Part shown: positions 14,216 to 29,140 of the stretch, piece by piece | Position numbering within the stretch: the first letter of the stretch is position 1 | Layout of the letters: the number at the start of each line of letters is the position of its first letter | Source: an uncultured Clostridia bacterium | GTDB taxonomy: Bacteria; Bacillota; Clostridia; Oscillospirales; Ruminococcaceae | DNA length: 60,349 bases | Direction: 5' to 3' | Assembly (NCBI GenBank): GCA_947627465.1 | Contig: CANQWD010000014.1 | Location: 1 to 60,349 of the forward strand | Position numbers and translations under genes: made by a program | Notes under the pieces: model-generated | Seen by the model: only the letters and a program-made list of their open reading frames with translations | Database searches by the model: none | Told to the model about the DNA's origin: nothing

Positions 14216-14301
14216 TGGTGGATGCGGGTGGATTCGGACCACCGAAGCGAAAACGCAACAGATTTACAGTCTGTCCCCTTTGGCCACTCGGGAACGCATC
14301 C
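14216..14301 (-). tRNA. tRNA-Tyr (GTA)
   Basis: An 86-nt class II tRNA has a long variable arm, acceptor stem GGATGCG/CGCATCC, anticodon GTA within GACTGTAAATC, and an encoded CCA. It lies just after tRNA-Thr in the same short operon. Confidence 0.95.
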
Positions 14302-14307
14302 AAATAA

Positions 14308-14383
14308 TGGAGCTGGTGAACGGACTTGAACCCCTGACCTGCTGATTACAAATCAGCTGCTCTACCAACTGAGCTACACCAGC
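14308..14383 (-). tRNA. tRNA-Thr (TGT), 5' half supplied by integrated element
   Basis: A 76-nt tRNA has acceptor GCTGGTG/CACCAGC, anticodon TGT in the loop TTTGTAA, a T-arm with GGTTCAAGTCC, and an encoded CCA. Its first 43 bases (14341-14383), down through the anticodon loop and its 3' stem strand, lie within the perfect 51-bp direct repeat found again at 27583-27633. The functional gene is therefore a hybrid: the original 3' part joined to a 5' part that arrived with the element. Its promoter (14418-14446) also lies on the element side. Confidence 0.95.
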
Positions 14384-14391
14384 ATTTGCTC
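14341..14391. repeat. attL: 51-bp direct repeat, 5' half of tRNA-Thr
   Basis: This is identical over 51 bp to 27583-27633. The left 17 bp (GCTGATTACAAATCAGC) is the anticodon stem-loop, a perfect dyad around ACA. That is the kind of core site tyrosine recombinases use. Confidence 0.85.
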
Positions 14392-14417
14392 CGTATCGCC
14401 CTGTTGGCGACTAATAT

Positions 14418-14446
14418 ATTATAGCACGTTCATTCGCGTTTGTCAA
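14418..14446 (-). promoter_or_regulatory. active promoter of tRNA-Thr/Tyr (element copy)
   Basis: On the minus strand TTGACA (14441-14446), a 17-bp spacer and TATAAT (14418-14423) lie 35 bp upstream of the tRNA-Thr 5' end. Because this is inside the repeat-bounded element, the promoter now driving the tRNAs is one the element carried in. Confidence 0.75.
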
Positions 14447-14649
14447 GCGGTTTTTTTGAAAAAATTTTCGTCAAGACCGCGATCCGAGAAGCCGATGTGT
14501 TGTAGATCGGCTTGTACAGCCGTTTTACGTAATTTGTCGAGATCAAAATTTTTTTGAGATTTTTTGGATTTTCGGCACAAGAGAGCCGCAAAACGCTTGA
14601 GCGGGTATTATTTCCAAGCGGTTAGCCTTGGCTATCTCAGGCGGTGATT

Positions 14650-14678
14650 TGGCAACCAAGTAGCAACCACAGCAACCG
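14650..14678. repeat. candidate left arm sites of the integrase
   Basis: Three direct repeats of the type (T)GGCAACCA / TAGCAACCA / CAGCAACCG are spaced 10-11 bp apart. The same motif occurs three times near the other end (27391-27440). Such clustered short repeats near both att sites fit arm-type integrase binding sites. The rest of 14392-14816 holds the tRNA promoter and A/T-rich sequence without a gene. Confidence 0.55.
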
Positions 14679-14816
14679 CAAGATAGAGTATGCCAAGGAT
14701 ACATAACCACCAGGATATTGAGATAAAGATTGTACAGCTTAGACCTTGTAAACCCGCTCCATAAGAGTTATCATAGCATCACCAAAGGAAAAGAAAGACA
14801 GTTGGAGGCTATGAAA

Positions 14817-15695
14817 ATGAGGACACAGACATTTGGGGTTGAGCTTGAGATGACGGGTATTACACGGAAATGTGCTGCGGAGGTCGCGGCGGCGTACTTC
14901 GGAACAACGAGCGAGTACATAAGCAGCGGTTACGATAAATACGCTGCAAAGGACAGCACGGGGCGGTTGTGGAGCTTCGTATCGGATTCGTCCATTCGTG
15001 TGGAGCAGGGCAGAAACGGCGAGGGGCAGCAGGTCGAGATGGTCACTACCACTCTCCGATATGAAAATATCGAATTGCTTCAAGAGCTTATCCGCAGGCT
15101 TCGCAAGGCGGGAGCGAAAACAAATTCAAGCTGCGGTATTCACATTCATATCGGTGCTGATCAGCACACGCCGAGGTCGCTCCGCAATTTGGTGAACATC
15201 TTCACAAGCAAGCAGGATATTATCTTCAAGGCTTTGGCAGTAGACTCCAACAGGCAGGGTTATTGCAAGAAGCTTGAAAACAGGCTCTCCGAGAGCTTGA
15301 ACAAGAGCCGCCCAAACAGCATGAATAAGGTCGCGGATATCTGGTATGCTGGGTACTCGGACAGCAGGAGCGCACACTACAACCCAAGCCGCTATCACGC
15401 AGTCAACCTGCACTCGGTATTCACTAAGGGAACAGTTGAGTTTCGATGCTTCAATTCAACGCTTCATGCGGGAAAGGTCAAGGCATACATTCAGTTCTGC
15501 TTAGCGGTTTCTCACCAAGCGATAACACAGAAATGCGCGAGCGCAAAGCCAACCGTCAGCGATAACGAGAAGTACACATTCCGCTGCTGGCTTCTCCGAA
15601 TGGGGATGATAGGCGATGAGTTCGCCACCTGTCGGAAGTTTATGCTTGAAAACCTTGGTGGAGATATTGCTTGGAGATACGGTCAAAGTGCCTAA
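14817..15695 (+). CDS. amidoligase-family enzyme (COOH-NH2 ligase)
   Basis: The 292-residue protein matches the Amidoligase_2 family, glutamine-synthetase-like ATP-dependent ligases that join carboxyl and amino groups. It has the N-terminal FGVELEMTG motif with metal-binding Glu, the GIHIHIGADQHT His motif near residue 110, and VEFRCFNSTLHAGKVKAYI near residue 210. The start is the ATG at 14817, 8 bases after GGAGG; an ATG 6 bases earlier is too close. The next gene encodes a gamma-glutamylcyclotransferase-like enzyme. This pairing is known from predicted amidoligase operons (work of Iyer, Aravind and colleagues), which suggests a gamma-glutamyl or peptide tag is added and removed. The substrate is unknown. 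Confidence 0.85.
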   Translation: MRTQTFGVELEMTGITRKCAAEVAAAYFGTTSEYISSGYDKYAAKDSTGRLWSFVSDSSIRVEQGRNGEGQQVEMVTTTLRYENIELLQELIRRLRKAGAKTNSSCGIHIHIGADQHTPRSLRNLVNIFTSKQDIIFKALAVDSNRQGYCKKLENRLSESLNKSRPNSMNKVADIWYAGYSDSRSAHYNPSRYHAVNLHSVFTKGTVEFRCFNSTLHAGKVKAYIQFCLAVSHQAITQKCASAKPTVSDNEKYTFRCWLLRMGMIGDEFATCRKFMLENLGGDIAWRYGQSA

Positions 15696-15777
15696 GAGGT
15701 GAAAATTTTCGGGAGGGAGTTCCTCTCTCCCAAACACCTACTCAAATATTGATTTTAAAAATGAAAGGAATTTGATT

Positions 15778-16272
15778 ATGAAACGGATTTACATTGCGTA
15801 TGGATCTAATATGAACATCGATTTGATGGTAACAAACAGATGTCCCGATTCCAAGCTGTTGGGTACTTCGCAGATCGATGGCTACGCCCTTGAATTTCAC
15901 GGCGGGAACGGCGGAGCGGTTGCGACTATCGTGCCGCGAGAGGACAGCAGAGTTCCCGTTGTGCTGTGGGAGATTTCCGAGCGTGACGAGCGGAATTTAG
16001 ATCGTTATGAAGGATTTCCAAAATTGTACATTAAAAGACCTTTTAAGGTGTATTTAGGTAAGCGCAAGGTAAACGCTTTTGCGTATGTTATGAGTGAGGG
16101 GTATCAGGTGGGTATTCCGAGCGAGTACTATTACAATGTGATCTTAGAGGGGTACACAGATAACGGAATAGACACCAAGCCGTTTTTTGCTGCGTTATTT
16201 TCGGCAAGGGAGCATTGCTCCGTCCGATACTTCCTTGAAGATATTTTCTCCTTGTTGAGCCTTACGGTGTGA
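15778..16272 (+). CDS. gamma-glutamylcyclotransferase-like protein (AIG2/GGCT fold)
   Basis: The 164-residue protein starts with the GGCT signature YIAYGSNMNIDLM, whose YGSN loop binds the gamma-glutamyl group. It continues with LLGTSQIDGYALEFHG, a catalytic-type Glu in VVLWEISERDERNLDRYEGF and the FAYVMSEGYQ strand. These enzymes release 5-oxoproline from gamma-glutamyl amines. I use the ATG at 15778, preceded by AAAGGAA; an in-frame TTG six bases upstream is possible. It follows the amidoligase by 82 bp in the same direction and probably works with it, reversing or trimming the ligase's product. A terminator overlaps its stop codon. Confidence 0.85.
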   Translation: MKRIYIAYGSNMNIDLMVTNRCPDSKLLGTSQIDGYALEFHGGNGGAVATIVPREDSRVPVVLWEISERDERNLDRYEGFPKLYIKRPFKVYLGKRKVNAFAYVMSEGYQVGIPSEYYYNVILEGYTDNGIDTKPFFAALFSAREHCSVRYFLEDIFSLLSLTV

Positions 16273-16295
16273 CTGTAAGGCTCTTTTACTCTCTT
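16257..16295 (+). terminator. terminator overlapping the GGCT-like stop codon
   Basis: GAGCCTTAC and GTAAGGCTC pair across a short loop that contains the TGA stop, followed by TTTTACTCTCTTTT. This ends the amidoligase-GGCT unit. Confidence 0.75.
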
Positions 16296-16299
16296 TTAC

Positions 16300-16440
16300 A
16301 GACAGAGGATAGCGTTCGGAAAAGTGCCGCCGATTTCAGTCTGTCCGAAAAACTTTAAACGGGTATTTTCAGACAGCGTTTCGGACGGCTCGGCGGCGTT
16401 ATATCAGAGTTTGAAATTGTATACTTTTTCGGTCTGTAGA
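16300..16440. promoter_or_regulatory. repeat-containing control region (possible res site) of the serine recombinase
   Basis: CAGAC/GTCTG and TTCGGA/TCCGAA motifs recur in both orientations: CAGACAGAGGATAGCGTTCGG, TCTGTCCGAAAAAC, and CAGACAGCGTTTCGGACGG. This arrangement resembles a recombination or operator site for the small serine recombinase that begins at 16455. The assignment is by position and symmetry only. Confidence 0.35.
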
Positions 16441-16454
16441 AAGAGGGTGATTTT

Positions 16455-17072
16455 ATGAAAGGTTCGGTTAATTGGGGTTATGCCCGTGTGAGCAGCACTT
16501 CTCAGAACTTAGATAGACAGCTTGAACAGCTTAGAGCCTACGGTATTGACGATAGGCACATCAAGACCGAGAAGCAGTCGGGCAAGGACTTCGAGCGGTC
16601 TGTATTTCTGTCACTTGTCGGCACAGACGAGGTTGCTCCCTCAATGAGAGCGGGCGATTGCTTGGTGGTCTGCTCCCTCGACCGTCTGGGGCGCAATTAT
16701 GCCGAGATACAGCGGTGGTGGAAGTACATCACGCAGGATTTGAAGTGCAGCATTGTCGTGCTTGACATGCCCATTCTGAACACACAGGGAGAGGGTAACT
16801 TGGACAAGAATTTCGTTGCCGATCTGGTGCTGCAAATTCTATCCTATGTAGCCGAGAAGGAGCGTCTGGCTATCCGAGAAAGACAGCGACAGGGTATTGA
16901 GGCGGCACAGGCTAAGGGCGTAAAATTCGGCAGACCGTCAATTCAAAAGCCAGACGGCTTTGACGAGGTAACGGCAAAATGGCGCAACGGTGACCTTACC
17001 GCCACAGCCGCTATGAGCCAGTTAGGGCTGTCTAAATACGCCTTTTATAAACTGATCAAGGAGGAAAATTAG
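16455..17072 (+). CDS. small serine recombinase (resolvase/invertase family)
   Basis: The 205-residue protein has the N-terminal catalytic domain of Tn3-type resolvases: YARVSSTSQNLDRQLEQL with the nucleophilic Ser in RVSS, then DCLVVCSLDRLGRNYAEI with the conserved Arg residues, and the long E helix (KERLAIRERQRQGIEAAQAKG). It finishes with GVKFGRPSI and a C-terminal helix-turn-helix (TATAAMSQLGLSKYAFYKLI). It would cut and rejoin DNA for resolution or inversion within the element. The start has an AGAGGGTGA ribosome site, and a symmetrical repeat region lies just upstream. The next gene starts one base after its stop. Confidence 0.92.
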   Translation: MKGSVNWGYARVSSTSQNLDRQLEQLRAYGIDDRHIKTEKQSGKDFERSVFLSLVGTDEVAPSMRAGDCLVVCSLDRLGRNYAEIQRWWKYITQDLKCSIVVLDMPILNTQGEGNLDKNFVADLVLQILSYVAEKERLAIRERQRQGIEAAQAKGVKFGRPSIQKPDGFDEVTAKWRNGDLTATAAMSQLGLSKYAFYKLIKEEN

Positions 17073-17073
17073 T

Positions 17074-17367
17074 ATGTTTCACTTTATGGGTATTCAATTC
17101 GGGAATTGCGATTATAGGCTGCAGCAAATAATTCCCGATACGGACGGCAAGCCTGTTCAGAAAACAAGCGATATTCTGTTCTGGGTGGTAGCGGACGTTG
17201 GGAACGGCACGCTTTATATCCCCGTTTCCAAGCTTGATATGGAAATGAACAAGACCGTTGTTCCCTCGCAGATTATCGCTTGCTATTCCGACCGCACTCG
17301 TACCTTGCTTAGAAAGACACCTCACGGTACAGAGACTCTTCCTTTCGGGGGTATCCTGCTGCGTTGA
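17074..17367 (+). CDS. unknown 97-residue protein
   Basis: No family is recognised. The ATG sits one base after the recombinase stop, with AAGGAGG inside the end of the recombinase gene, so the two are translationally coupled. The protein is compact and soluble-looking with no signal peptide or membrane helix: MFHFMGIQFGN at the start, a central FWVVADVGNGTLYIPVSKL, and FGGILLR at the end. A strong terminator follows at 17403-17436. Coupling to the recombinase suggests a role in the element's own biology, such as accessory control of recombination, but that is inference. Confidence 0.7.
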   Translation: MFHFMGIQFGNCDYRLQQIIPDTDGKPVQKTSDILFWVVADVGNGTLYIPVSKLDMEMNKTVVPSQIIACYSDRTRTLLRKTPHGTETLPFGGILLR

Positions 17368-17402
17368 TTTTGGAGAAATTCACCGTACATTTATATTTTG
17401 AG

Positions 17403-17436
17403 CCGCCTGTCGTGATTGACAGGCGGTAATTTTTTG
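17403..17436 (+). terminator. terminator of the recombinase unit
   Basis: CCGCCTGTC-gtgatt-GACAGGCGG forms a perfect 9-bp stem followed by TAATTTTTTG. Confidence 0.9.
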
Positions 17437-17455
17437 TGCTTAAGATACCTTGATA

Positions 17456-17560
17456 AGCGGTTTTTCGGCTTTGGCAAGTCGTTTTTTGTGCTTAGTCAGC
17501 GATTTTTCAAGTTAAGGGAGCGATTTCTCAAACTTAGTCACCGATTTTCTTGCAAGGCTG
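17456..17560 (+). repeat. five 21-bp imperfect tandem repeats
   Basis: Five contiguous 21-bp units share the pattern AGcGATTTtTcaagcTTAGtc. Two of the central units (17498-17518 and 17519-17539) are closest to each other. Read as codons they would give heptads of the type RFFKLxE. They lie in the 437-bp gap after the terminator at 17403-17436. They could be iterons for DNA-binding proteins or a scrap of coding sequence; no ribosome site supports a gene. Confidence 0.65.
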
Positions 17561-17805
17561 ACCTGTTTTTCTTTATTGCAGAGCCGTTTGTGCGGTCGTG
17601 TTGAGAGAAAACTTTCAAGACGCTTCAATTGGTATCCGAATAGGACTTCTGCGCCTTAACAGTCCGACTTAACAATAACATTTCGGAATTTGTTTTGTTA
17701 AGAGTTTTGGGGCAGATTTCCCGCATAACCGCCGCCCTGCTCCCGAAAAATTGAAGCGTTCCGTACTTTTTATTAACAAATTGGCTTTATGAAAGGGGTT
17801 TTATT

Positions 17806-18441
17806 ATGATTATCAAAGACTTGAAGGATTGCGGCAATAAAACACAGCACAGGCTCAGAGAGCTTGAAGCGGCAGGCGTTTCCGACACAGCGGAGATAGA
17901 TTTTTTGCGGCGAAAGGCGGCAGCTCTGCGTGAGCTTCAGCGTTATGTTCAATTCGGCGATTGGACACGCAAGGCTTCTCGTGAGAAATATCTCGCTCTT
18001 TTTAGCAGCAAATTCGACTATGAGCTGACAGCGAAACGCTTTAATACCGAACGGGAGTGCCTTCATGTATTCGCCACACGACAGAACAAGCGGCTTGAGC
18101 GCACTATCGGCGGAGCTTTGCTGCTGATTGAGCAGGGTAGAATTGAAGAGGGGCTTGACTGCTTCTATGCCGCAACAGGCGAATTTTCAGAGGGAGAGTT
18201 CGATTACAGAGTATCCGAGCTGCTGCCCAAGACCTCACAGAAAGACAGCTTTTTGGTGTCGGACTGCGGCGAGGAGGTCAATATTCTGCGTTCATTGATG
18301 AAGTCTAACGTCCAGAAGTGGCTTAACGGTGCGGATTTGGACAAGCTGTCCTATCTTGTGTTCCTGCTTAACACCAAAGAAGAAGCATTTCGGCAGCAGA
18401 GGACGGAGTTGATAGGCGAGCTGCGGAAGAAAGACAGTTAA
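17806..18441 (+). CDS. unknown 211-residue helical protein
   Basis: I do not recognise the family. The product is predicted to be almost entirely helical and soluble, with a Leu/Arg/Glu-rich N-terminal half (residues 1-60) and a segment at about 70-110 that could hold a helix-turn-helix-like hairpin (FDYELTAKRFNTERECLHVF). It ends Lys/Arg-rich (RQQRTELIGELRKKDS). The start ATG has GAAAGGGG upstream at good spacing. It stands alone between the 21-bp repeats and the structured leader of the LRR lipoprotein. Confidence 0.7.
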   Translation: MIIKDLKDCGNKTQHRLRELEAAGVSDTAEIDFLRRKAAALRELQRYVQFGDWTRKASREKYLALFSSKFDYELTAKRFNTERECLHVFATRQNKRLERTIGGALLLIEQGRIEEGLDCFYAATGEFSEGEFDYRVSELLPKTSQKDSFLVSDCGEEVNILRSLMKSNVQKWLNGADLDKLSYLVFLLNTKEEAFRQQRTELIGELRKKDS

Positions 18442-18485
18442 AGTCGCTGAACCCTTTGCCCATAAGGATTTTTTGGAAAAACATC

Positions 18486-18515
18486 TTGACAAATTGAGGA
18501 GTATTGTGTTATAAT
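18486..18515 (+). promoter_or_regulatory. strong promoter of the structured leader
   Basis: TTGACA (18486-18491), an 18-bp spacer and TATAAT (18510-18515). Transcription is expected to start near 18521, exactly where the folded RNA begins. Confidence 0.75.
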
Positions 18516-18520
18516 ATGGG

Positions 18521-18675
18521 TGCGACACAATTTAATATACTTCACGGTGCGTACACTTTGCCATATGGTAAAAGTGCATGCTCTTTTCGTGTACGCTTAG
18601 TGAAGTAGCGGAATTGTGTCGCAGCAATCGGAGCTTTGCATTTTTCGGTGCGTAGCTTCGGCTGCGCACTTTTTG
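18521..18675 (+). ncRNA. structured RNA or leader with intrinsic terminator
   Basis: The outer stem is a perfect 12-bp pairing, 18521-18532 with 18612-18623. Inside it, ACTTCAC (18539-18545) pairs with GTGAAGT (18600-18606), and GCGTACAC (18549-18556) pairs with GTGTACGC (18589-18596). A small TTTgCCATATGGtAAA hairpin sits near 18557-18573. A terminator follows at 18648-18675, and the LRR lipoprotein gene starts 45 bp after it. This is either a stand-alone small RNA of about 155 nt or a cis-acting attenuation leader (riboswitch-like) for the lipoprotein. It matches no RNA class I can recognise. Confidence 0.7.
18648..18675 (+). terminator. terminator between structured leader and LRR gene
   Basis: GTGCGTAGC-TTCG-GCTGCGCAC is a 9-bp stem with a stable UUCG tetraloop, followed by TTTTTG. 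Confidence 0.9.
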
Positions 18676-18720
18676 ATTTACGGGGGGAAGTTTCCCGATA
18701 TACGAAAGGCAGAGTAAAAT

Positions 18721-20370
18721 ATGGGTATTAGAAAAACGATTGCTACTGTTATAGCGGCAGCTATGGTGCTGTCGATGACGGCTTGTGCCAATAATGAAAA
18801 ACCAAATAACGAAGGAGTGATGACAAATTCAAACAACAGCTCTACTAATAGGATTTATGGGATTGAGGATGATGTTCCCGTACCGCCGAAACAGACTTCC
18901 ATGTGGGACGTTATTCCCGAAATACCCGTGACGGATGCGAGTGCGTTTACATACAAGTATGACAGCGAGCTTGGCGGTATGGTCGTTACCGACTATTTGA
19001 GGGAGTCGCCGAAGGTGAGGATTCCCGATATGATTGAGGGTGAGCCTGTTGTAAAAGTTGATTTTAGTGAAGTGTATAAAGAGCTAACACAACTTGTTAT
19101 GCCTGACAGCGTTAAGGAATTTGAATTATCATATACGGCAAAAGACTATTTGCAATATGTAAATATTCCAAATAGTGTAACTGAGATTGACGCAGAGATT
19201 TTCCGTAACAGATCAAACCTTATAAGCGTGTATATTACAAATGGTACGACTGCTATTAACAAGGAGGCTTTCAGCGGCTGCAAAGAAATTAAAGTCACCT
19301 ATAAAGGTGAAACCTATGTTTACGAGTACATCCAAGATTTGTATGATGCCATTAATTGCGGAGAGGATGGTATGCTTATTGAAGATGGGACGCTGAAAGA
19401 TGTATCGCAGAAGTTTACAGAGATTACTATTCCAGACAGCGTGACCAATGTTAACTGGGGTGTTTTGAATTCTCGCACAAACCTTACAAGCATAAATGTT
19501 GTCGAAGGAAATACGGTTTTTTCTTCTGCAGATGGGCTGCTATATATGAAAAAAGAAGATGGGTCATCTCTTGAGCTTTGTCCTAAAGGAAGAGGAGGTG
19601 ACATTACGCTGCCCGATGGCGTGACCGAAATCTCAACGTATGCTTTCAGCGACTGCACAGATATCACAAGTGTGACTATCCCGGATAGTGTAAACAAAAT
19701 AGGCAATTTCAGCGGATGTACAAGCCTTACAAGTATAAATGTAGCAAACGGAAACGCAAAATACTGTTCCGTTGACGGAATGTTATGCGAAAAACACGAC
19801 GATGGGAAAGTATCTCTTGAGAAATGTCCTAATGTCAAGGCTGTAAGTATAACTATCCCTAATAGTGTAACCGAAATTTATAACTCTGCTTTCAGCGACT
19901 GCACAAGTCTTACAAGTGTAATTATCCCCAACAGCGTTATCGAAATTGACTGGGATGCTTTCATAAACTGCAAAAATATTCAAGCCGCCTATAAAGGAAC
20001 AACCTACGATTACGACTGCTTAGATGAATTGTATGATACTATAAAATATGGGGAAAGCTTAATAGTCGGAAAGACTTTTAGGATTGACAGGGCTGAAGTA
20101 ATTGGTGTGAATAGTGAAATCGAATTTGATCCTAATAAATTCAATATGTCCCTGTTCTTTAAGAAAGGTGGTAGATGCGAAATGTCTGCTATTTCCGAGG
20201 ACGGTAACCAGCAGTCTGTTGAAGGCAAATATAAAAGGGGAGAATATTATATTGAGCTTATAGACGATGATAGCGACAACACAATGAAGATGAAAATTAT
20301 AGACGGCGAACTACGCATGGAAGTTAGAGAGTCAGGGCAAACTGTTTGGATATATTTCGTTGCTAAATAA
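18721..20370 (+). CDS. BspA-type leucine-rich-repeat lipoprotein
   Basis: The 549-residue protein starts with a lipoprotein signal (lipobox MTAC, Cys22), then a short Asn/Ser-rich linker. From about residue 100 to 440 come BspA/LRR_5-type repeats (units such as IPNSVTEIDAEIFRN, LPDGVTEISTYAFSDC and IPNSVTEIYNSAFSDC), interrupted by beta-rich inserts. About 110 residues of a separate C-terminal domain follow (KTFRIDRAEVIGVNSEIEFD onward) that looks lipocalin-like. It would sit on the outer membrane face and bind host or microbial ligands. Among the element's genes this is the main secreted product. Its mRNA begins with the structured leader and terminator just upstream, so its expression is probably conditional. 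Confidence 0.85.
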   Translation: MGIRKTIATVIAAAMVLSMTACANNEKPNNEGVMTNSNNSSTNRIYGIEDDVPVPPKQTSMWDVIPEIPVTDASAFTYKYDSELGGMVVTDYLRESPKVRIPDMIEGEPVVKVDFSEVYKELTQLVMPDSVKEFELSYTAKDYLQYVNIPNSVTEIDAEIFRNRSNLISVYITNGTTAINKEAFSGCKEIKVTYKGETYVYEYIQDLYDAINCGEDGMLIEDGTLKDVSQKFTEITIPDSVTNVNWGVLNSRTNLTSINVVEGNTVFSSADGLLYMKKEDGSSLELCPKGRGGDITLPDGVTEISTYAFSDCTDITSVTIPDSVNKIGNFSGCTSLTSINVANGNAKYCSVDGMLCEKHDDGKVSLEKCPNVKAVSITIPNSVTEIYNSAFSDCTSLTSVIIPNSVIEIDWDAFINCKNIQAAYKGTTYDYDCLDELYDTIKYGESLIVGKTFRIDRAEVIGVNSEIEFDPNKFNMSLFFKKGGRCEMSAISEDGNQQSVEGKYKRGEYYIELIDDDSDNTMKMKIIDGELRMEVRESGQTVWIYFVAK

Positions 20371-20426
20371 CTAAAAACGTGATACCTGATAACGGGTGTG
20401 ATTTTGCAAATGTGTTTTACAAGTTC

Positions 20427-20567
20427 GACAAAACTTTCTCCAATAACCGCATAATTGCCAAACAGCACTAAAAATGTAAAAGTCAAGACCGCTTTCGCGT
20501 TCATTTTAGTCTTGACTTTTACATTTTTAGTGCTATAATGACAATGCGGTTATTGGAGAAATTTGTC
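20427..20567. repeat. large palindrome containing a promoter
   Basis: Two perfect stems are nested: 26 bp (20464-20489 with 20509-20534, loop 19 nt) and 18 bp (20435-20452 with 20544-20561). A further GACAAA/TTTGTC pair lies at the edges. The right arm carries a promoter, TTGACT (20512-20517) - 16 bp - TATAAT (20534-20539), whose -10 lies just outside the inner perfect arm. Confidence 0.85.
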
Positions 20568-20655
20568 ATTCTATGGTATTTACACAGTTCAAAATTAAGA
20601 CTCCTGATAACTACTAAATAAGAAAACCGCTCCTCTCGGGGCGGTTTTCATTTTG
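20543..20655 (+). ncRNA. possible ~110-nt small RNA
   Basis: The promoter in the palindrome points right and the next recognisable signal is the terminator at 20622-20655. No open frame with a ribosome site lies between, so a short untranslated transcript is expected. This is inference from signals only. Confidence 0.4.
20622..20655 (+). terminator. terminator after the palindrome
   Basis: GAAAACCGCTCC-TCTC-GGGGCGGTTTTC followed by ATTTTG. Confidence 0.8.
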
Positions 20656-20659
20656 CCCT

Positions 20660-23147
20660 TAAATTCGCCCGTTCTTGCGGCTTTTGGCTCTCTGTCGTGT
20701 TGTTACTCTACCTCTTGCTGCAGGGCGCGACACGGGCGATTTTTGGGGCGTTCTGATGGCTCTCTGTTTTCTTTGGCGGCAGTCCTTTCACGGACTACTG
20801 CTTTTTTATTTGTACGTGCTGTAATTTGTGCATAATTGCAGAATTTTTCGTGTGCTATTGTCTACTTTTAGTGCAAAATCCATAAATTTCAACTAAAAAG
20901 CGTATTAAGGCGGCTTGGCAGTATTGTCAATACCGCTTCTCCCGTGAGCCGCTTTCCGACTATGGCTCAGTCCAAGCATTAGGGTATGGCGGATAGTCAA
21001 AAGAATTGTAAGGTGTGAAATTGTAATTGTTGAAGAAGGAAACACGCAGATAATGGAAGTCGATTATGAAATGGTATCTTGAGAGTAAATCGGAATTTCA
21101 AGATCGGTCATTTCGTATAGGATAGGAAAATGAAAAATTCTCCAACTCACCGAAGATGAACTCGTTGAGATCGGTACGAAATTCAATACCGCTCATTATA
21201 AATCATAGGGTGGGCAGAGGAAAATCGGATACTTGAGGTTTCGTATAGGATAGGTGAACCGATAATTCTCCAACTCGCGGATAGGGTTACTCGTTCATTC
21301 CGCTATCTCGGAGAGTATTCCTTTAGGGGAGGCGGGCGGGTTCAGCCCAATGGAGCGATTAAGCTATGCAACAGGTGAGCAATTCGCCTGTTCGCCGATT
21401 GATTTTTTCTTAGGGGTGGTGGGCGGGTGAAGTCAAATGGGGCTATTCGCCAATTGGCGGATTTGGATATTCGGAGCGGAAGCTCCAAAGGGCGGGCGGC
21501 GGGATTTAATATATAACAGGCGGTAGGCGCAGAACTTGCTGCCTGTTTTTTTATGCCGTGAGTGGTGCAGTGAGAGTTCGCCATTCGGCGAGTCAACGTT
21601 TTGCGGAGTAGCATGAGAATTAGATTTGCAGGGCGGATTTCCACAGAAAGACAGTCGATATTTTGAAATTGATCGGGGAGTGATCGCCGTTGGCGGACGA
21701 TCTCCTTGCAGGGTATTTTGAGTGCTTCGGCACTTCCATTGAGCGGCAGAGAAGAACACGGAATATTAACTCGTTCCGAGTGGAGTGTCTGAACAGATTG
21801 CGGGATTGCCCTCTGCTTTGTGGTGAGTTGCGCCGCAGGGCGAGTAATTCTTTTATACGGTATTCCGATAATTCAATCCGTAGAGCAGATACTCACAGAA
21901 AGACAGTTGATATTTTGAAAAAGAGCGGGGAGTGTTCGCTGTTGGCGTGTCATTCCCCTATGCGGTATTACGATAAATCGCCTTGCAGAGCGGATTTGTA
22001 TAACAGGCGGCAGGATATATTCTCGTTTTGGATTGAGTTTCGCCGTTTGGCGGTTGATTGCGGTACTCCATATTTTTCAGACCGCTGTTTCCCTTGTCAG
22101 AAATTATGCAGGGCGATTGATATTTCGGAGCGGTGCAGTGAGGTTTGCAGTTATTCAACACTATCTCTGCGGTATTTCGGGAGAGCTGTCTTTCTCCGAT
22201 ATTTCGCGGTTCAGCTCTCAAGACTCCCGAAAAGCGGTACTGATAGCCTGCTCATTTCGTGCCGTCATAATTTTTTACGGTTTCGGGAGCGCAAATTCTC
22301 TTGTCGAGCGGGTATTCATTTTTGCCGTAAGGGATGCCCAAATCGGGTCGAGCCAAGGGGTGATTTCAAGGATAGCTTGGGCTTGTGATTGTTTACTCGA
22401 AAGGGCGATTTAAAATCGCAATTTTTTATTTTTTCTTTGTTTGGGGTATTGAGCGGGGCGGGGACTCTCTCAAGTGGCGGTATTCCTGCAGGCTTCAGCC
22501 CTACCGAGATTTGGAGAACAGTGGCTTAAGTGTATGCACTAAGGCGGCGCAGCATCTCGGTTTTGAATTCCGTCAGCGTGTTTTATCTTGTGCTGATAGC
22601 TAAAAAAACGGAAAGATATACTGAGAAAATTATATCAGTTTTTGGAAAAAAACACTGAGATTTACTTTAGCGCGATAAACTGAACCTTCAATAAAATTTT
22701 TCTTTTTTGTATGATGCGCAGTGTTGGGATTCGCTTATCAACAGTGGGCAATAGTTACTCATCAGTGAGGTTGTTATACCCCTTATCGCAGCCCTTTTAT
22801 CGCTCAGTGGTGAATGGGTATTGATAATATGGCATACACTGCCTGCTCATGGCGGGATTTCAAGCATGATATCGGCACAAATTGAACGGAAACTTGCTTA
22901 AATACACCGATTCTGCACAAAGTGTCGTCAATAACAGTGATCTGTCGCGGAGATCGGTTTTGTGGTCTGGACTCAGCATACCGCGCGAAGCACAATTCAT
23001 TTAAGTAGTATAGTTGTAAAACGGAGGGCTGAAAGAGCAGTACCTCTCGATGTGTAAGAAGTTTTTTGATGTGTGGAGATTAAACACGCTTAAAGGTAAG
23101 ATCTTTTTTATGATCCACGATATTACCTCAAACTCACACGAGCGCGT
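20660..23147. repeat. 2.5-kb non-coding block with diverged direct repeats
   Basis: No frame here has a credible ribosome site or protein-like composition. Three pairs of diverged direct repeats are visible: about 40 bp at 21111 and 21239 (TTTCGTATAGGATAGG...TCTCCAACTC), 38 bp at 21323 and 21410 (TTAGGGG.GG.GGGCGGGT), and about 54 bp at 21642 and 21894 (CACAGAAAGACAGT then GATATTTTGAAA). The motif GCGGTATTNCGG also recurs between 21850 and 22200. The block may be decayed genes, a transfer or replication region, or binding-site arrays. Beyond 22620 it is A/T-rich with no features seen. Confidence 0.5.
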
Positions 23148-23174
23148 GTGGGAAATTTTAAGGAGGTCAATATC

Positions 23175-24797
23175 ATGACTAATGAAAAGAACTTTAACCT
23201 TGAGCAGGCTGCTGCTCCCGCTATCGGTACTGTGAACGCACAGGATACAATGGAGGACACGCCCGCTTGCAGTGAGCGCGCTTCAAAGACCAAACTTTTT
23301 ACTTCTTTCAAGCTCAGTCGGGAACTGCGTATTATGATTATTGAAGCTGTGCTGCTAATTATGGAGAGGTATAACGCTTACAGCAAGGGAATGAACCGTC
23401 AGTTGACACAACAGGATTTAGCATGGTATGTCGACAAAACAATGTACAAAAAGCTTATGACGGAGAACGGCAAGACAAATGCCGATGCTCCCGATCCGTT
23501 GATTTTAAGGGTGGCGGTTGTCTGTATGCATACTTGTGTTCAAGTTAAGTGTGATGAGATGCTTAAATTTTTGGGACACAGAAATTTACTCGCTCATGAA
23601 CACACTTTCGAGAAAGAGGCGGAGGTAGATGATTTCCGTGTGGAGTTCAGTGAGTCGCCTAGTGGCTTCACTCAAACACATTATGAGTACCTCAAGGAAG
23701 TGTATCCCGATGCAAAGGATAATGCGGAGTTAGTGAAGCTGGCGTTTTCCGATGCACTTATGTTTGCCGCAAGATTTACGGGGAAGTTTGATACGCATCT
23801 GTCCTCGGCAGGCTCTAAAAAGTGGGCGATGAAGTTGTTCCATTTGGATATGATAAACTTTATCGAAGAGCAGAAGAAAGTGCTTGTTGATGTGTTCTCT
23901 CGGACAGCGAGTGTTGCTCTTGCAAGCATGGGTATTTTTGATGAGATTTACTGCGGGGACAAGGATAAGCAGTTTGTGAATTTCTTTGAAGTGCTGCGTG
24001 ATTATCCCGTCGCTTTAGTTCTCAGACTTAGGTCGATATGTATGAGTTATCATAACGAGTTACTGAAGGTGTGGTATTACGAAGGTGAACTGCGTAATTT
24101 CTGTAATGATTTCTATGCGGAGATAACTAAGAGAATGGACAAGAATTTGCACAAGGCGAGCCTTACTGTAAAAATAGATGCTGCTGTTTGCCTGTTACTT
24201 AGGTTTAGGTTTTCTTTCAGCGGCTACGGTAAGGATTTCAATCTTGAACAAGCAAGCAAGTTTATTGACCGCCTTGATAGTGTATGCAACGATTTGTTAT
24301 ACACTTCGATGATTCTGACCGATAGGGAGAATTCCCGCAATATTCAAAAGGGTATTTACAAAAAAACAGCAGGCGGCTTAGCGTATCAATCTGTTAGCGT
24401 ATCCGATAAAAAGACCGTTTCTATCTGTCCTATCAGCTATGAACATTGGGATTTCAAGAAACCTATTATCGCACATAGAGATAATCCGAACGCCGTTTTT
24501 GCCCTCGACATGCCCTATCCCAGAGCTTTCTTTTTACCATGCGATGATTACAAACATGAGTTCAAGGGCAAGTATTTTGAAGATATGCTTAAACTGTTTA
24601 AGGGGGCAAAGTGCAAGGCTATCCTGTTTTGCTCGGAGAACCTTGACGTTGAAGCAATAGCGGCTAAGTATGGTTTCAGACTTGTAGGTACATATCGTAA
24701 GAGTAAGGACTCCACGGAAGTAACAAATGTTTTCGCTTTTAACATTAGCTCTGAAGAGGAGTTCTTCGACCCGAAGAACAACGGCGAGTTAGATTGA
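23175..24797 (+). CDS. unknown 540-residue protein of the integrative element
   Basis: I do not recognise a family. The start ATG (23175) has an excellent AAGGAGGTCAATATC site; an upstream in-frame start is unlikely. The product is soluble, with a disordered head of about 45 residues and then a long helical region (about 45-400, for example IMIIEAVLLIMERYNAYSKG and LLRFRFSFSGYGKDF). A more compact C-terminal domain of about 130 residues follows (HWDFKKPIIAHRDNPNAVFA ... AIAAKYGFRLVGTYRKSKD). That domain looks like an alpha/beta fold, perhaps nucleotide- or ligand-binding. It ends 13 bp before the integrase start, so it is probably co-expressed with it and may act in excision, maintenance or defence. 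Confidence 0.75.
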   Translation: MTNEKNFNLEQAAAPAIGTVNAQDTMEDTPACSERASKTKLFTSFKLSRELRIMIIEAVLLIMERYNAYSKGMNRQLTQQDLAWYVDKTMYKKLMTENGKTNADAPDPLILRVAVVCMHTCVQVKCDEMLKFLGHRNLLAHEHTFEKEAEVDDFRVEFSESPSGFTQTHYEYLKEVYPDAKDNAELVKLAFSDALMFAARFTGKFDTHLSSAGSKKWAMKLFHLDMINFIEEQKKVLVDVFSRTASVALASMGIFDEIYCGDKDKQFVNFFEVLRDYPVALVLRLRSICMSYHNELLKVWYYEGELRNFCNDFYAEITKRMDKNLHKASLTVKIDAAVCLLLRFRFSFSGYGKDFNLEQASKFIDRLDSVCNDLLYTSMILTDRENSRNIQKGIYKKTAGGLAYQSVSVSDKKTVSICPISYEHWDFKKPIIAHRDNPNAVFALDMPYPRAFFLPCDDYKHEFKGKYFEDMLKLFKGAKCKAILFCSENLDVEAIAAKYGFRLVGTYRKSKDSTEVTNVFAFNISSEEEFFDPKNNGELD

Positions 24798-24810
24798 GGG
24801 GGTGGGGATA

Positions 24811-26313
24811 ATGTTGAACATTTTGAATAACAAGGTTATCTCCGTTTCCGAGATTTCCGAACGGATAGGCTTTGCGCCCGATGACATTATTATTGAGCTT
24901 CAGCGCAGGGGTATTGCTCCCATTCGTATGGGAAACAATTTCTATCTCACGGCGGATATGCTGTCGGTGCTTTTTAGCCAGGATAATACAGATATTTTTG
25001 TGACTAATCAACCAATTTGTGCGACTGATATTGACAACCGCCCCTCGGCAGAGTTATCATTACCTCAGCTTAAAGGACGGGAGGTTTTGAGAGTGGCAAA
25101 CGCAACTATTTCATTTGTAAGCAAAGAGGGCAGGAAAAAACCTTATATGGTTCAGCGGCGGGTGTACTTTGAGGACGGCGGTTTTAAGCGCGTTTCAAAA
25201 TGTTTCGCTACCCGTGAGGAGGCTGAGGCTTATGCGGCAAAGGTTGACGGGGAGCGTGAACGGATTGTTCCCTGCCCCGAAAGCGTACATATTGTAGCTA
25301 CTGTAAACAGCAGACAGGCTGTCTGCAGCAATATGTCATTCTATGACTTTATGCGGTATTTCATTAAAGACAGTGGTCAATGCACCTGCGGCGATAGAAC
25401 AAAGAAGTGCTACATGGACACCACTAACCGCATTCACAAAGAGCTTGATAAGATTGGGATGGGTTCGATTACTCTCGGTGAATTGGACGACACGGTATTG
25501 AATAAGGTTATTAAGAACATCGCAGATTGTGGTGACGGTGATTCTCTGCTCGACAAGGTGTATAATTTTACAAAGCGTGTATTGAGATATGCCTTTGCAA
25601 AGGAGTATATCGGCAGGGATATTTCCTTACTTATCCGCAAAGCGAAGAGCCGCAAACAGGAAGGTGACGAGACTGACGCGCAGAACCGCAATCCGTATTC
25701 GGATGAAGAAATCAAGATGCTGCTCGATGCCGCTAAGCCGAATATCCGCCTTTATGCGATAATCATTCTGGCTCTCTATTCGGGTATGCGCCCTGCTGAG
25801 ATACGGGCATTACGATGGAAGGATATTGATTGGAGCAATGGCGTAATTCGTATTAACGGTGCGGTCAAAAGAAAGTATGGTGATGTTGAGACTTCGTCAT
25901 ATAGCGAGTTCGTTGGTTCAACCAAAAGCAGCAGCGGTATACGAGTTATTCCTCTTGCCGACAGAACAGCAGCGGCATTGAAGGACTGGAGAGCCGAGTC
26001 GGAGAAAACCACCGTTGGCAGGGATTCGGAGTTTATCTTCTTCAGCAAGAATGGCGGAGCTATGAACGAAAGCCAATACAGCAGTATGTGGCGCAGATTT
26101 ATCAATAGCCACAGTTGGAAAGGCAGAGGGTACTTTCTGTATCGCTTCAGACACACATTCTGCACTCGTTTGCTGCTTAATGACAGCACACATCAGGAGG
26201 TCAAGGCATTGATGGGCGATAGTTCATTAAAGGTTATCGAGCAAAACTATAACGGTATCAGAAGTCAAGATGTTCTTGAGCGTTCGCGTGAAACAGTCAA
26301 CGGTATTTTTTGA
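24811..26313 (+). CDS. int: tyrosine recombinase (integrase) of the element
   Basis: The 500-residue integrase has an N-terminal helix-turn-helix-like segment (ISVSEISERIGFAPDDIIIE), an AP2-like arm-binding region (YMVQRRVYFEDGGFKRVSK), a core-binding SAM-like domain (about 165-270), and a catalytic domain (about 290-500). Visible active-site positions are Arg327 (YSGMRPAEIRALRW), Lys372 (STKSSSGIRVIPL), Arg447 in YRFRHTF, and the nucleophile Tyr480 (IEQNYNG). Two usual His positions differ: the first of box II is Tyr444, and the GH of box III is Gly-Asp470. The start ATG has GAGGGGGTGG upstream. It lies 1.3 kb from the right att site and presumably catalyses the tRNA-Thr insertion. Confidence 0.9.
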   Translation: MLNILNNKVISVSEISERIGFAPDDIIIELQRRGIAPIRMGNNFYLTADMLSVLFSQDNTDIFVTNQPICATDIDNRPSAELSLPQLKGREVLRVANATISFVSKEGRKKPYMVQRRVYFEDGGFKRVSKCFATREEAEAYAAKVDGERERIVPCPESVHIVATVNSRQAVCSNMSFYDFMRYFIKDSGQCTCGDRTKKCYMDTTNRIHKELDKIGMGSITLGELDDTVLNKVIKNIADCGDGDSLLDKVYNFTKRVLRYAFAKEYIGRDISLLIRKAKSRKQEGDETDAQNRNPYSDEEIKMLLDAAKPNIRLYAIIILALYSGMRPAEIRALRWKDIDWSNGVIRINGAVKRKYGDVETSSYSEFVGSTKSSSGIRVIPLADRTAAALKDWRAESEKTTVGRDSEFIFFSKNGGAMNESQYSSMWRRFINSHSWKGRGYFLYRFRHTFCTRLLLNDSTHQEVKALMGDSSLKVIEQNYNGIRSQDVLERSRETVNGIF

Positions 26314-26326
26314 GATTTGATTTTAT

Positions 26327-26358
26327 GGCTGCGGAGAGATTTCCGCAGCCGTTTTTTT
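26327..26358 (+). terminator. integrase terminator
   Basis: GGCTGCGGA-gagat-TTCCGCAGCC followed by GTTTTTTT. Confidence 0.9.
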
Positions 26359-26431
26359 GATATCAAGTGTATTCTTCTCTTGACAAAACTGCCGTGAGAT
26401 GCTATAATAAAGGTATAAAGGGGGATTGCCG

Positions 26432-27223
26432 ATGGATATTATTAAAGCAAAGCTTGATGTCGTTTTTAAGAAGCTCTTTACAAGTGACGATGAGGTTTTG
26501 AAAGGATTTATAAGCGATATGCTTGATATTCCCAAAGCCGATATCGGGCAGATTACGGTCAATAACCCCAATATTCTACCATCCGTGCTGTTCGTTCAAG
26601 ACGGAAAGCAAGCGCAGCTCGATTTGAAATTGAGTGTTGATGATAAAATCGTGAATGTTGAAATACAGCTCTGCAATAAGGGAAACTTCCCCGACCGCTC
26701 GGTGTACTATTGGTCGAAGATGTTCTCTGATGAACTGAAGAAGAGCGAGGATTATGCTGATCTTAAGAGAACAATTTGCATAAACATCTTGGATTTCAAG
26801 CTGTTTGACTGCGATAGTGCATATTCAAAGTTTTTATTGCTTGAGGAAACAAGGCACGAGTTGCTGACGGATAAGTGTGCTATTATGTTCCTTGAACTTG
26901 TTAAAGTGGACGAGGAGATAGATAAGAATGACCGCAGAAAGCTGTGGCTGCAGCTTATTAACGCCGAAACGGAGGAGGAATTGGATATGCTGGAAAAGAC
27001 AGGTGTTCCCGAAATACAGAAGGCGGTAGTGATACTACATGAAATGAGTGCCGATGAAGAGATGCGCGAGATGGCTCGGCTCAGAGAAAAGGCTATCCTC
27101 GATGAGAAGTCGGCTGTGAATTTTGCGAGGAGAGAGGGCGCGGAGGAAAGAGAGTCGGAAATTATTGCCCGAATGAGGGCTGACGGTTTAACGGAAGAAC
27201 AAATACGAAAGTATATTGAGTAG
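26432..27223 (+). CDS. Rpn/PDDEXK_2-family putative nuclease
   Basis: This 263-residue protein of the Rpn (recombination-promoting nuclease, formerly 'transposase PDDEXK_2') family begins with KLDVVFKKLFTSDDEVLKGF, the family hallmark. The PD-(D/E)xK core follows as QLDLKLSVDDKIVNVEIQL, then RSVYYWSKMFSDELKKSEDY and INILDFKLF. Rpn proteins are small Mg-dependent endonucleases, often numerous per genome and linked to mobile DNA or defence. The C-terminus ends in a charged helix and a GLTEEQIRKYIE motif typical of the family. I start at ATG 26432 after AAAGGGGGATT; an upstream TTG (26426) is possible. It has its own promoter-like A/T-rich leader. Confidence 0.87.
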   Translation: MDIIKAKLDVVFKKLFTSDDEVLKGFISDMLDIPKADIGQITVNNPNILPSVLFVQDGKQAQLDLKLSVDDKIVNVEIQLCNKGNFPDRSVYYWSKMFSDELKKSEDYADLKRTICINILDFKLFDCDSAYSKFLLLEETRHELLTDKCAIMFLELVKVDEEIDKNDRRKLWLQLINAETEEELDMLEKTGVPEIQKAVVILHEMSADEEMREMARLREKAILDEKSAVNFARREGAEERESEIIARMRADGLTEEQIRKYIE

Positions 27224-27259
27224 CTGCTTGTATGCTGGAGGCTAACTATATCCGATAAA

Positions 27260-27321
27260 AAATCGGTAGTGATACTGCACGAGATGAGTGTCGATGAGCA
27301 AATGTGCGATATGCTTAAATG
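27260..27321 (+). pseudogene. fragment duplicated from the Rpn gene
   Basis: The stretch reads VVILHEMSVDEQMCDMLK then stops, closely matching VVILHEMSADEEMREMARL of the neighbouring Rpn protein (bases near 27021-27075). It is a short 3' scrap of an old tandem copy with no start of its own. Confidence 0.6.
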
Positions 27322-27390
27322 AGAATTTCAAGCTGTCCGAGCAATCGGGCGGCTTTTTCTATGTCAATATTTGTGTTAGGTCTTGTCTAT

Positions 27391-27440
27391 TGGCAACCAA
27401 CTGGCAACCGCTTTTCTTACATTTTCCAGGTGTAGCAACC
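27391..27440. repeat. candidate right arm sites of the integrase
   Basis: TGGCAACCA (27391), TGGCAACCG (27402) and TAGCAACCG (27433) repeat the motif seen three times near the left end (14650-14678). The position 150-190 bp inside the right att repeat fits arm-type sites. Confidence 0.55.
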
Positions 27441-27524
27441 GTTTTATCAGATATGTGCACATCTCGGCGAATACCAATGAAACGCGGTTGCAGCGTGATT
27501 TGTTGACTTCTCAAGTAAACCAAA

Positions 27525-27562
27525 AAGTGCTCAACCTTATCGGTCAAGCACTTGATTTTTTA
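27525..27562 (+). terminator. terminator near the element's right end
   Basis: AAGTGCT...AGCACTT with an inner ACC/GGT pairing, followed by GATTTTTTATT. It would stop element transcription before the att site. Confidence 0.65.
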
Positions 27563-27582
27563 TTAAGAAAGAGCATTATCTG

Positions 27583-27633
27583 GCTGATTACAAATCAGCT
27601 GCTCTACCAACTGAGCTACACCAGCATTTGCTC
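27583..27633 (-). pseudogene. attR: stranded 5' half of tRNA-Thr
   Basis: This is a perfect 51-bp copy of 14341-14391: bases 1-43 of tRNA-Thr plus 8 bp of leader. It has no 3' half, so no tRNA can form. The original promoter survives upstream at 27697-27725, so a truncated tRNA-like transcript reading into the element is possible. Confidence 0.85.
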
Positions 27634-27696
27634 ACGCAACCGCTTAGCTGCGCTGCATCACAATATTATGTTGCGCCGTTTATCAGCGACTAATAT

Positions 27697-27725
27697 ATTA
27701 TACCACGTTAGTTTTGATTTGTCAA
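27697..27725 (-). promoter_or_regulatory. original tRNA-Thr promoter, now separated from the tRNA
   Basis: On the minus strand TTGACA (27720-27725), a 17-bp spacer and TATAAT (27697-27702). The block from about 27690 to 27845 is a diverged match of 14411-14575. The remaining bases to 28089 show no gene. Confidence 0.65.
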
Positions 27726-28089
27726 GGGGTTTTTTCAAAAATATTTTGCCGTCGTGTGGGTCTAAAGGCGCTTAATGCCAGCGAAACGGCTTATACAGCC
27801 GATTTGCGGAAATTTGTATAACAGAAATTTTTTTTGAAATTTTAAGGCAACATATAGCCGCTCCCCAGAGTCCCTCCACGGACTTTTTCGAGCTGCCTTA
27901 GTTTTTTGCCTGCGCTTTGGTGGCAGTATCGGACGTGCACCTTTTATCGCCCGAATCGCGCGTTTCGCGGCACGAGGATCGGAATGACGAGGAGTTTCAA
28001 AAGGGGATAAAATGGGAGAAAACTTGTTGTTGCGCGTTTTTAGTGTGAATTGCACAAACGCGCCGCCGAGAATTTGAGCATAAAAACGC

Positions 28090-28816: not shown

Positions 28817-29140
28817 TTACTGAGCGGAAGCAGCCTCGGAAGTTGCCTCGGAAGTTGCCTCGGAAGCAGCCTCGGAAGTAGCCTCGGAAGTTGCGTTGGA
28901 AGCAGCCTCGGAAGTTGCGTTGGAAGCAGCCTCGGAAGTTGCGTTGGAAGCAGCCTCGGAAGTTGCGTTGGAAGCAGCCTCGGAAGTAGCATTAGAAGTT
29001 GCATTAGAAGTAGCATTAGAAGTTGCATTAGAAGTTGCATTAGAAGTTGCGGGCGAGCTAGTGTTGTCACCGCAGCCTGCAAGTGTCATAGCGGAAGCAG
29101 CTACAATAGCTGCAAGAATGATCTTAGTTGTCTTTTTCAT
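28817..29140 (-). CDS. lipoprotein with Ser-Asn/Glu-Ala-Thr/Ala tetrapeptide repeats
   Basis: The 107-residue product has a lipoprotein signal peptide ([20 protein letters not shown], lipobox LAGC, Cys23). It then consists almost wholly of tetrapeptides SNAT, SEAA and SEAT, with a higher-order eight-residue unit SEAASNAT. At DNA level this is a 12-bp tandem repeat with a 24-bp super-period from 28820 to about 29050, likely to vary in copy number. There is no folded domain, so the anchored mature protein would be an extended, possibly glycosylated Ser/Thr stalk. It has its own strong promoter at 29196-29224. The homology of the repeat with other proteins is not informative. Confidence 0.75.

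Follow-up and report, generated by a model that had tools for sequence, protein, structure and literature searches.

The DNA considered here is a stretch of 60,349 nucleotides (the window), contig CANQWD010000014.1 of assembly GCA_947627465.1 from an uncultured Clostridia bacterium of the Ruminococcaceae, and our subject is the segment between 14341 and 27633, where parts of a tRNA-Thr(TGT) gene stand at both ends of what we regard as an integrative element. An exact direct repeat of 51 bp (14341-14391 and 27583-27633) bounds this segment, and a scan of both strands finds the 51-mer at these two places of the window alone. An earlier interpretation made from the letters only, the sequence-only reading, had described the repeat as perfect and as consisting of tRNA-Thr bases 1-43 plus leader. 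The first statement is exact to the base, and the second agrees with ARAGORN, which calls a complete tRNA-Thr(TGT) at 14308-14383 on the minus strand, with 8 leader bases completing the block. There is no call at the right-hand copy, which stands without the 3' half of the gene. The 17-bp dyad around ACA that had also been pointed out is indeed perfect (14341-14357) and, read from its sequence, is the anticodon stem-loop. The left end has the intact tRNA, whose 3' half adjoins a tRNA-Tyr gene; upstream of its 5' end follow, in order, a promoter, arm-like repeats and cargo genes. Past the right-hand copy lie a second promoter of the form TTGACA-17-TATAAT and then other genes. The features that carry the argument are listed here.

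14216-14301, minus strand: tRNA-Tyr(GTA), same strand as tRNA-Thr and 6 bp downstream of it
14308-14340, minus strand: 3' part of tRNA-Thr(TGT), bases 44-76, probably host-derived
14341-14391, minus strand: repeat copy at the left attachment site (attL), bases 1-43 and 8 leader bases, probably supplied by the element at least as far as the anticodon loop
14418-14446, minus strand: probable element-borne promoter of tRNA-Thr, -35 TTGACA at 14441-14446, 17-bp spacer, -10 TATAAT at 14418-14423
14650-14677, plus strand: putative left arm-like repeats, TGGCAACC, TAGCAACC and AGCAACC
24802-26313, plus strand: tyrosine integrase of the YxFRHTxC / MGD clade, 503 aa, frame intact
27391-27440, plus strand: putative right arm-like repeats, TGGCAACC twice and TAGCAACC once
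27583-27633, minus strand: repeat copy at the right attachment site (attR), probably the stranded host tRNA-Thr 5' half with 8 leader bases
27697-27725, minus strand: probable stranded host promoter, -35 TTGACA at 27720-27725, 17-bp spacer, -10 TATAAT at 27697-27702

We hold it very likely that an integrative element of 13.2 kb entered the tRNA-Thr(TGT) gene by means of its own tyrosine integrase, bringing with it the 5' half of the gene and a promoter. Since the perfect 51-bp repeat starts inside a tRNA gene and the interval holds an integrase, the arrangement is not due to chance; and because the element lies between the repeat copies, the intact tRNA would combine a host 3' half with a 5' half and promoter from the element, the right-hand copy and its promoter being the stranded part of the host. 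By the features that Islander uses to recognize islands, the element is bounded by an intact tRNA gene and an end fragment of that gene which starts at base 1, the 5' fragment lies on the upstream side in the same orientation as the intact gene, a tyrosine integrase lies inside, and the length of about 13.2 kb falls within 2-200 kb. The integrase sits near the right-hand repeat, and its frame ends before it. Each end of the element carries three copies of [GA]GCAACC, and on the plus strand all six such sites of the window fall in these two clusters; the other strand has seven, one (16637) inside the element and six outside. The clusters look like arm-type integrase sites, and a search with a degenerate arm pattern gave 0 matches. 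A second pair of repeats (14407-14468 and 27686-27747, 82%) includes the -35/-10 pair on both sides, a likeness that does not prove a shared origin, since matches to such promoter stretches are numerous in these genomes, most of them weak. The sequence-only reading had already proposed that the 5' half came with the element, that of the host being stranded at the right. Support for this comes from sister elements built alike and from an empty site, seen on its rpsF side, in a related family, with the correction that the promoter of the tRNA-Thr/tRNA-Tyr pair would have been replaced too.

In the mechanism we propose, strands would be exchanged within the 7-bp anticodon loop (bases 32-38), which has the anticodon-stem dyad on either side. 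Beyond the core as seen from the integrase, the attachment site of the element (attP) would hold the tRNA from base 1 to the loop and a promoter of the sigma70 type. Integration would then join the element promoter and 5' half to the host 3' half at attL and leave the host promoter and 5' half stranded at attR, and the element promoter would from then on front tRNA-Thr and, behind it, tRNA-Tyr. With a promoter of the mobile element in front of both genes, the supply of both tRNAs may depend on the element. Beyond the two places in the window, the one further match in the same genome, among the matches listed (to about E 1e-17), is a tRNA-Thr(CGT) on contig C21. To the same limit the matches listed include no second tRNA-Tyr in this genome, with 7 of 16 places scored and the assembly 97% complete. 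It is our guess that tRNA-Thr(TGT) and tRNA-Tyr are both single-copy here; if so, the host depends on the element.

Elements of the same kind occupy the same gene elsewhere in the genus. Among 43 genus genomes, G040 is the sole other one with an integrase match at E 1e-20 or better; its integrase, 60-62% identical, is followed by GCAACC arms and then by an orphan tRNA-Thr of bases 1-38 with a host-type promoter, and another of its contigs carries an intact tRNA with arms, an amidoligase (84%) and a gamma-glutamyl cyclotransferase (GGCT, 77%). A scan of genome contigs gave one close integrase relative at 61% (L067, from an uncultured Clostridia metagenome-assembled genome, isolate Lapin-016), which is apparently G040 itself, the contig numbers and coordinates being in agreement, and a second, distant match at 24% (L068). 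Left ends of the same kind are present in G039 and G021, making three relatives in all with G040. The right end of the G021 element, on another contig, has an orphan half with 3 mismatches in 38 bases and the weakened promoter TGGACA/TATAAC; the intact copy has no mismatch and the promoter TTGACA/TATAAT. The 30 tRNA-Thr loci compared are those retrieved out of 100 genomes, and at least two arm sites within 400 nt upstream of tRNA-Thr occur at four of them (G000, G039, G040 and G021); 25 of the remaining 26 have no arm site and one (L014) has a single site. In 297 genomes of the family, the best integrase match besides the integrase itself is 27% over 201 residues. The amidoligase genes of G039 (L163) and G021 (L166) each contain one in-frame stop, a sign of decay.

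Related integrases are also found in other genera. At E 1e-25 or better, 7 of 394 genomes of the order have matches, the genome of the window included; searches of 87 and 391 genomes gave 6 and 9, in part the same ones, with a match at 1e-40. In four genomes of one genus, g31 (G072, G465, G525 and G535), an orphan 5' half of tRNA-Thr(CGT) lies 3' of the integrase, aligning from base 1 or 6 to base 43. The G465 element is complete, with an intact tRNA, repeats of 94% over 50 nt that lie 10,522 bp apart, and the integrase near the right repeat; in G525 the intact tRNA lies about 12.7 kb from the orphan half, and in G072 and G535 it is on another contig. The region after the orphan is the same in all four, and we take it, from its translation, to be rpsF-ssb. 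In G094, where the search gave no such integrase match, 93 nt separate an intact tRNA-Thr(CGT) from the start of the homologous rpsF-side region; this makes it an empty site for the related g31 elements on the rpsF side only, the left flanks not being conserved. A probe search gave no match in G718 and only a partial one in G719.

The position of the cut can be approached through the homologues. Orphan 5' halves end at base 38 (G040) or 43, the block in the window ends at base 43, and the orphan 3' halves of G452 and G609, which have homologous integrases, begin at base 32; the cut, if it is shared, therefore falls within bases 32-38, the anticodon loop. The sequence-only reading had likewise favoured the anticodon loop as crossover, and a member of the same clade, G847, lends this support: its tRNA-Thr(CGT) is split with an 8-bp shared core, TTCGTAAT, that consists of the anticodon loop and one further base. 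The stranded halves are found at about 22418-22463 (3' half) and at 41759-41800 (5' half) of the joined stretches L219+L220+L221. The 19-kb element between them has, besides primase- and DnaB-like genes, an amidoligase and a GGCT, a complete tRNA-Thr(CGT) of its own, which looks like tRNA-dependent integration. G930 and G1069 have an intact tRNA-Trp beside the integrase; to judge from one end each, G452/G609 and G930/G1069 probably restore the 3' half. Two modes of rescuing the tRNA (5' half, whole tRNA) are thus seen at both ends of elements and a third, the 3' half, at one end.

In the tree, the eleven integrases form one supported clade (98/98), and the YxFRHTxC...MGD motif is found in nine of them and, for the other two (G040 and G609), is seen in the alignment. 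The g31 integrases of the 5' type branch outside the rest, and those of the window and G040 group with the 3'-side types and G847 (99/97). A single origin of the 5' types is weakly rejected by the approximately unbiased test (p-AU 0.04, with long branches and a group chosen after the tree had been seen), and repeated switching of rescue mode within the clade is only suggested. On balance we lean towards a clade in which the cut has stayed at the loop and rescue has switched between the 5' half with promoter (possibly evolved twice), the whole tRNA in at least one element, and 3' orphans or the usual 3' side in others, and in which decay of the stranded half would mean that precise excision damages the tRNA, so that the element becomes locked in. 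Beside other integrases, 5' tRNA fragments lie just upstream of an intact tRNA-Thr(GGT) or tRNA-Ile (L047 813-1231 and L196 3031-3202), perhaps scars of earlier events.

The reading of the segment as an element that supplied the 5' half and promoter is carried by the anatomy, the integrase, the paired end repeats, the like sister elements and the rpsF-side empty site, all as read from sequence comparisons; several points weigh against it. The empty site joining 14340 to 27634, proposed as a check by the sequence-only reading, was not found in relatives; the tRNA-Thr flanks in 20 relative regions differ from those of the window, and the comparison with the neighbours in the window gave just weak ABC-protein matches of about 30% identity. 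Regions of relatives with fabV or genes of the right flank (L126, L127, L129-L132) have no tRNA-Thr. The other proposed check, the attP junction of an excised circle, gave 0 exact matches in viral contigs, where alone it was sought. The right end of the G039 element was not seen among the best 40 of 42 places scored, and the G040 element is split over two contigs. The crossover position is bounded by homologues rather than measured. The ends of the G021 element are alike through the leader and promoter too, for which a loop crossover alone is insufficient, and in G465 (L218 1659-1734 and 12214-12256) both 5' halves are of one type, yet G525, which has a near-identical integrase, has halves of another type. 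A loop crossover alone would not explain this difference either.

One alternative is a crossover near the 5' end of the tRNA, by which the intact tRNA would be wholly that of the host, the promoter alone would have been replaced, and the orphan 5' half would have come with the element. The identity block spans the whole 5' half and the window alone cannot place the crossover within it, and the halves of G465 and G525 fit such an exchange. We nevertheless judge it improbable, given that the block extends to base 38 in G040 and to base 43 in the window, that the 3' orphans of G452 and G609 start at base 32, and that the G847 core is the loop and 1 bp; furthermore, the decayed copy in G021 is the orphan, as expected of a stranded host copy. 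Far less credible still is a repeat made by duplication or homologous recombination between tRNA copies, with no integrase-driven element at all. In favour of such an origin are the tRNA sequence of the repeat and the promoter stretch, which has many matches in the genome, most of them weak; the integrase near the repeat, the paired arm-like repeats and the sister elements at the same gene lead us to reject a duplication without an element, and the rpsF-side empty site in the related family speaks against it as well. A third possibility concerns only the present state and is compatible with entry of an element that brought the 5' half and promoter: an integrase-driven entry that happened once, and an island that is now fixed and immobile, kept for the promoter of tRNA-Thr(TGT)/tRNA-Tyr. 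There is no evidence of excision, the amidoligase genes of G021 and G039 have in-frame stops and the stranded half of G021 is mutated; in the window, by contrast, the integrase has an intact frame, and the arm clusters and repeats of both ends are intact, as is the stranded host promoter. We consider immobility possible but doubtful here; the 13.2-kb element may still be mobile today.

Recombination with the 5' part of a target gene is reportedly, by its title and a sentence citing it, the subject of the 2002 work of Zhao and Williams. Among the sources drawn on here, all available in excerpt, Table 1 of the Islander paper counts 3760 islands with 3' fragments and 159 with 5' fragments, 3919 in total (PMC4383910), and recombination at the 5' side is called 'considerably less frequent' in another, which cites Zhao and Williams 2002 among others (PMC6563490). 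The sequence-only reading had stated that most elements restore the 3' half; the element in the window is of a rare but described 5'-fragment configuration, and the comparison within its clade is its most interesting part. With the 5'-fragment islands of Islander it shares, as far as the excerpt goes, a tyrosine integrase, an intact tRNA at one end and an upstream 5' fragment on the same strand, and it differs in island family, integrase clade, cargo and host (PMC4383910). The archaeal elements of the pTN3/TKV4 type come close in another way. The excerpts describe pTN3-like integrases that act on tRNA 5' halves, the tRNA then being read from the integrase promoter (PMC8371274), and a shared block of 41 bp with separation of the tRNA from its promoter (PMC5495485). 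A similar situation is said there to be seldom met in bacteria, where, with very few exceptions, elements in tRNA genes leave transcription to the host promoter (PMC8371274). The likeness lies in the bacterial attachment site equivalent, attB, being a tRNA 5' half (tRNA-Leu for pTN3) and in the tRNA being parted from its original promoter; unlike the element in the window, those elements are archaeal, split their integrase gene on integrating and have the tRNA transcribed from its promoter (PMC8371274, PMC5495485). Here the 503-aa frame of the integrase is unbroken and the promoter stands at the opposite end of the element, which is not the suicidal pTN3-like arrangement. For tRNA-dependent lysogeny, the excerpt reports that some related integrases restore the tRNA and others do not, and mentions an earlier case of a Lactobacillus prophage (PMC10865867). 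The problem of a split tRNA is shared, and G847 resembles that system in its short core and its own tRNA; the element in the window differs in its 51-bp block, in restoring the host tRNA and in containing no complete tRNA, and does not belong to that class (PMC10865867).

In the open-licence literature we found no publication on 5'-half restoration in a clade that also has other modes, and one integrase clade in which the cut is seemingly fixed and the rescue mode varies seems, to our knowledge, to be new. Its members offer natural replicates (5' half, whole tRNA and, probably, 3' half) for how rescue modes switch, and they also bear on whether decay of the stranded copy locks elements in.

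The cargo agrees with the compact cargo element of the sequence-only reading, which had passed over the tyrosine integrase (24802-26313), the serine resolvase (16455-17072) and the GCAACC clusters. The remaining genes of the element are these.

14730-15695, plus strand: Amidoligase_2 protein
15772-16272, plus strand: gamma-glutamyl cyclotransferase (GGACT/AIG2; GGCT)
16455-17072, plus strand: serine resolvase/invertase
17806-18441, plus strand: island protein of 211 aa without a Pfam family, 83-94% identical in two islands elsewhere
18721-20370, plus strand: BspA-type leucine-rich repeat protein with a lipoprotein-like start (by eye)
23148-24797, plus strand: protein of 549 aa directly before the integrase, without a Pfam family
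26426-27223, plus strand: Rpn/PDDEXK_2 nuclease-family protein

The 549-aa protein has a faint similarity to D12 DNA methyltransferases (E 0.0079; probability 75% over 57 columns in another search). Relaxase and type IV secretion families are absent among the 8 larger open reading frames (ORFs) scanned, smaller ORFs being outside the scan, and a classification as an integrative and conjugative element was set aside, there being no transfer genes among these 8. As regards a phage satellite (PICI), none of them was named as a packaging or helper-hijacking gene, proteins without a family remain, and the pair of amidoligase and GGCT is known from viral contigs too.

The cargo is modular. At 82-94% identity, a block of the same four genes (amidoligase, GGCT, resolvase and 17806 protein) is found again beside the tmRNA gene of the same genome (L174 16703-20000, L175) and beside tRNA-Gln in G024 (L173 9485-14875), with a more distant copy in G038 (L176). 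These copies have other integrases where one was seen, and integration modules appear, from this comparison, to have been swapped between cargo blocks. Amidoligase and GGCT occur together in 19 of 22 viral-contig loci. Neither the integrase of the window nor the 549-aa protein has a match in viral contigs; the integrase matches 165 phage records, all below 60% identity (the 8 listed at 22-27%), and the 3 plasmid records that matched did so in the tRNA stretch alone. Viral contigs from the clade alignment have a tRNA fragment at 12 of 31 loci, all 3' parts and none 5', a survey that serves as a control for the fragment search and is hardly informative on the clade, since only 1 of the 31 loci (L242) has the clade motif.

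Between the leucine-rich repeat protein and the 549-aa protein lie 2.8 kb without a convincing gene (20371-23147), with diverged repeats 128 and 252 bp apart. At 20432-20564 there are nested inverted repeats, with perfect 26-bp arms within 21-bp arms at 95%; by eye, one side of them shows what resembles a promoter. Outside the element, on its right, a small lipoprotein-like ORF contains tandem repeats of 12-48 bp (the repeats at 28826-29050), and a very long ORF of 3242 aa runs on the minus strand from about 32208.

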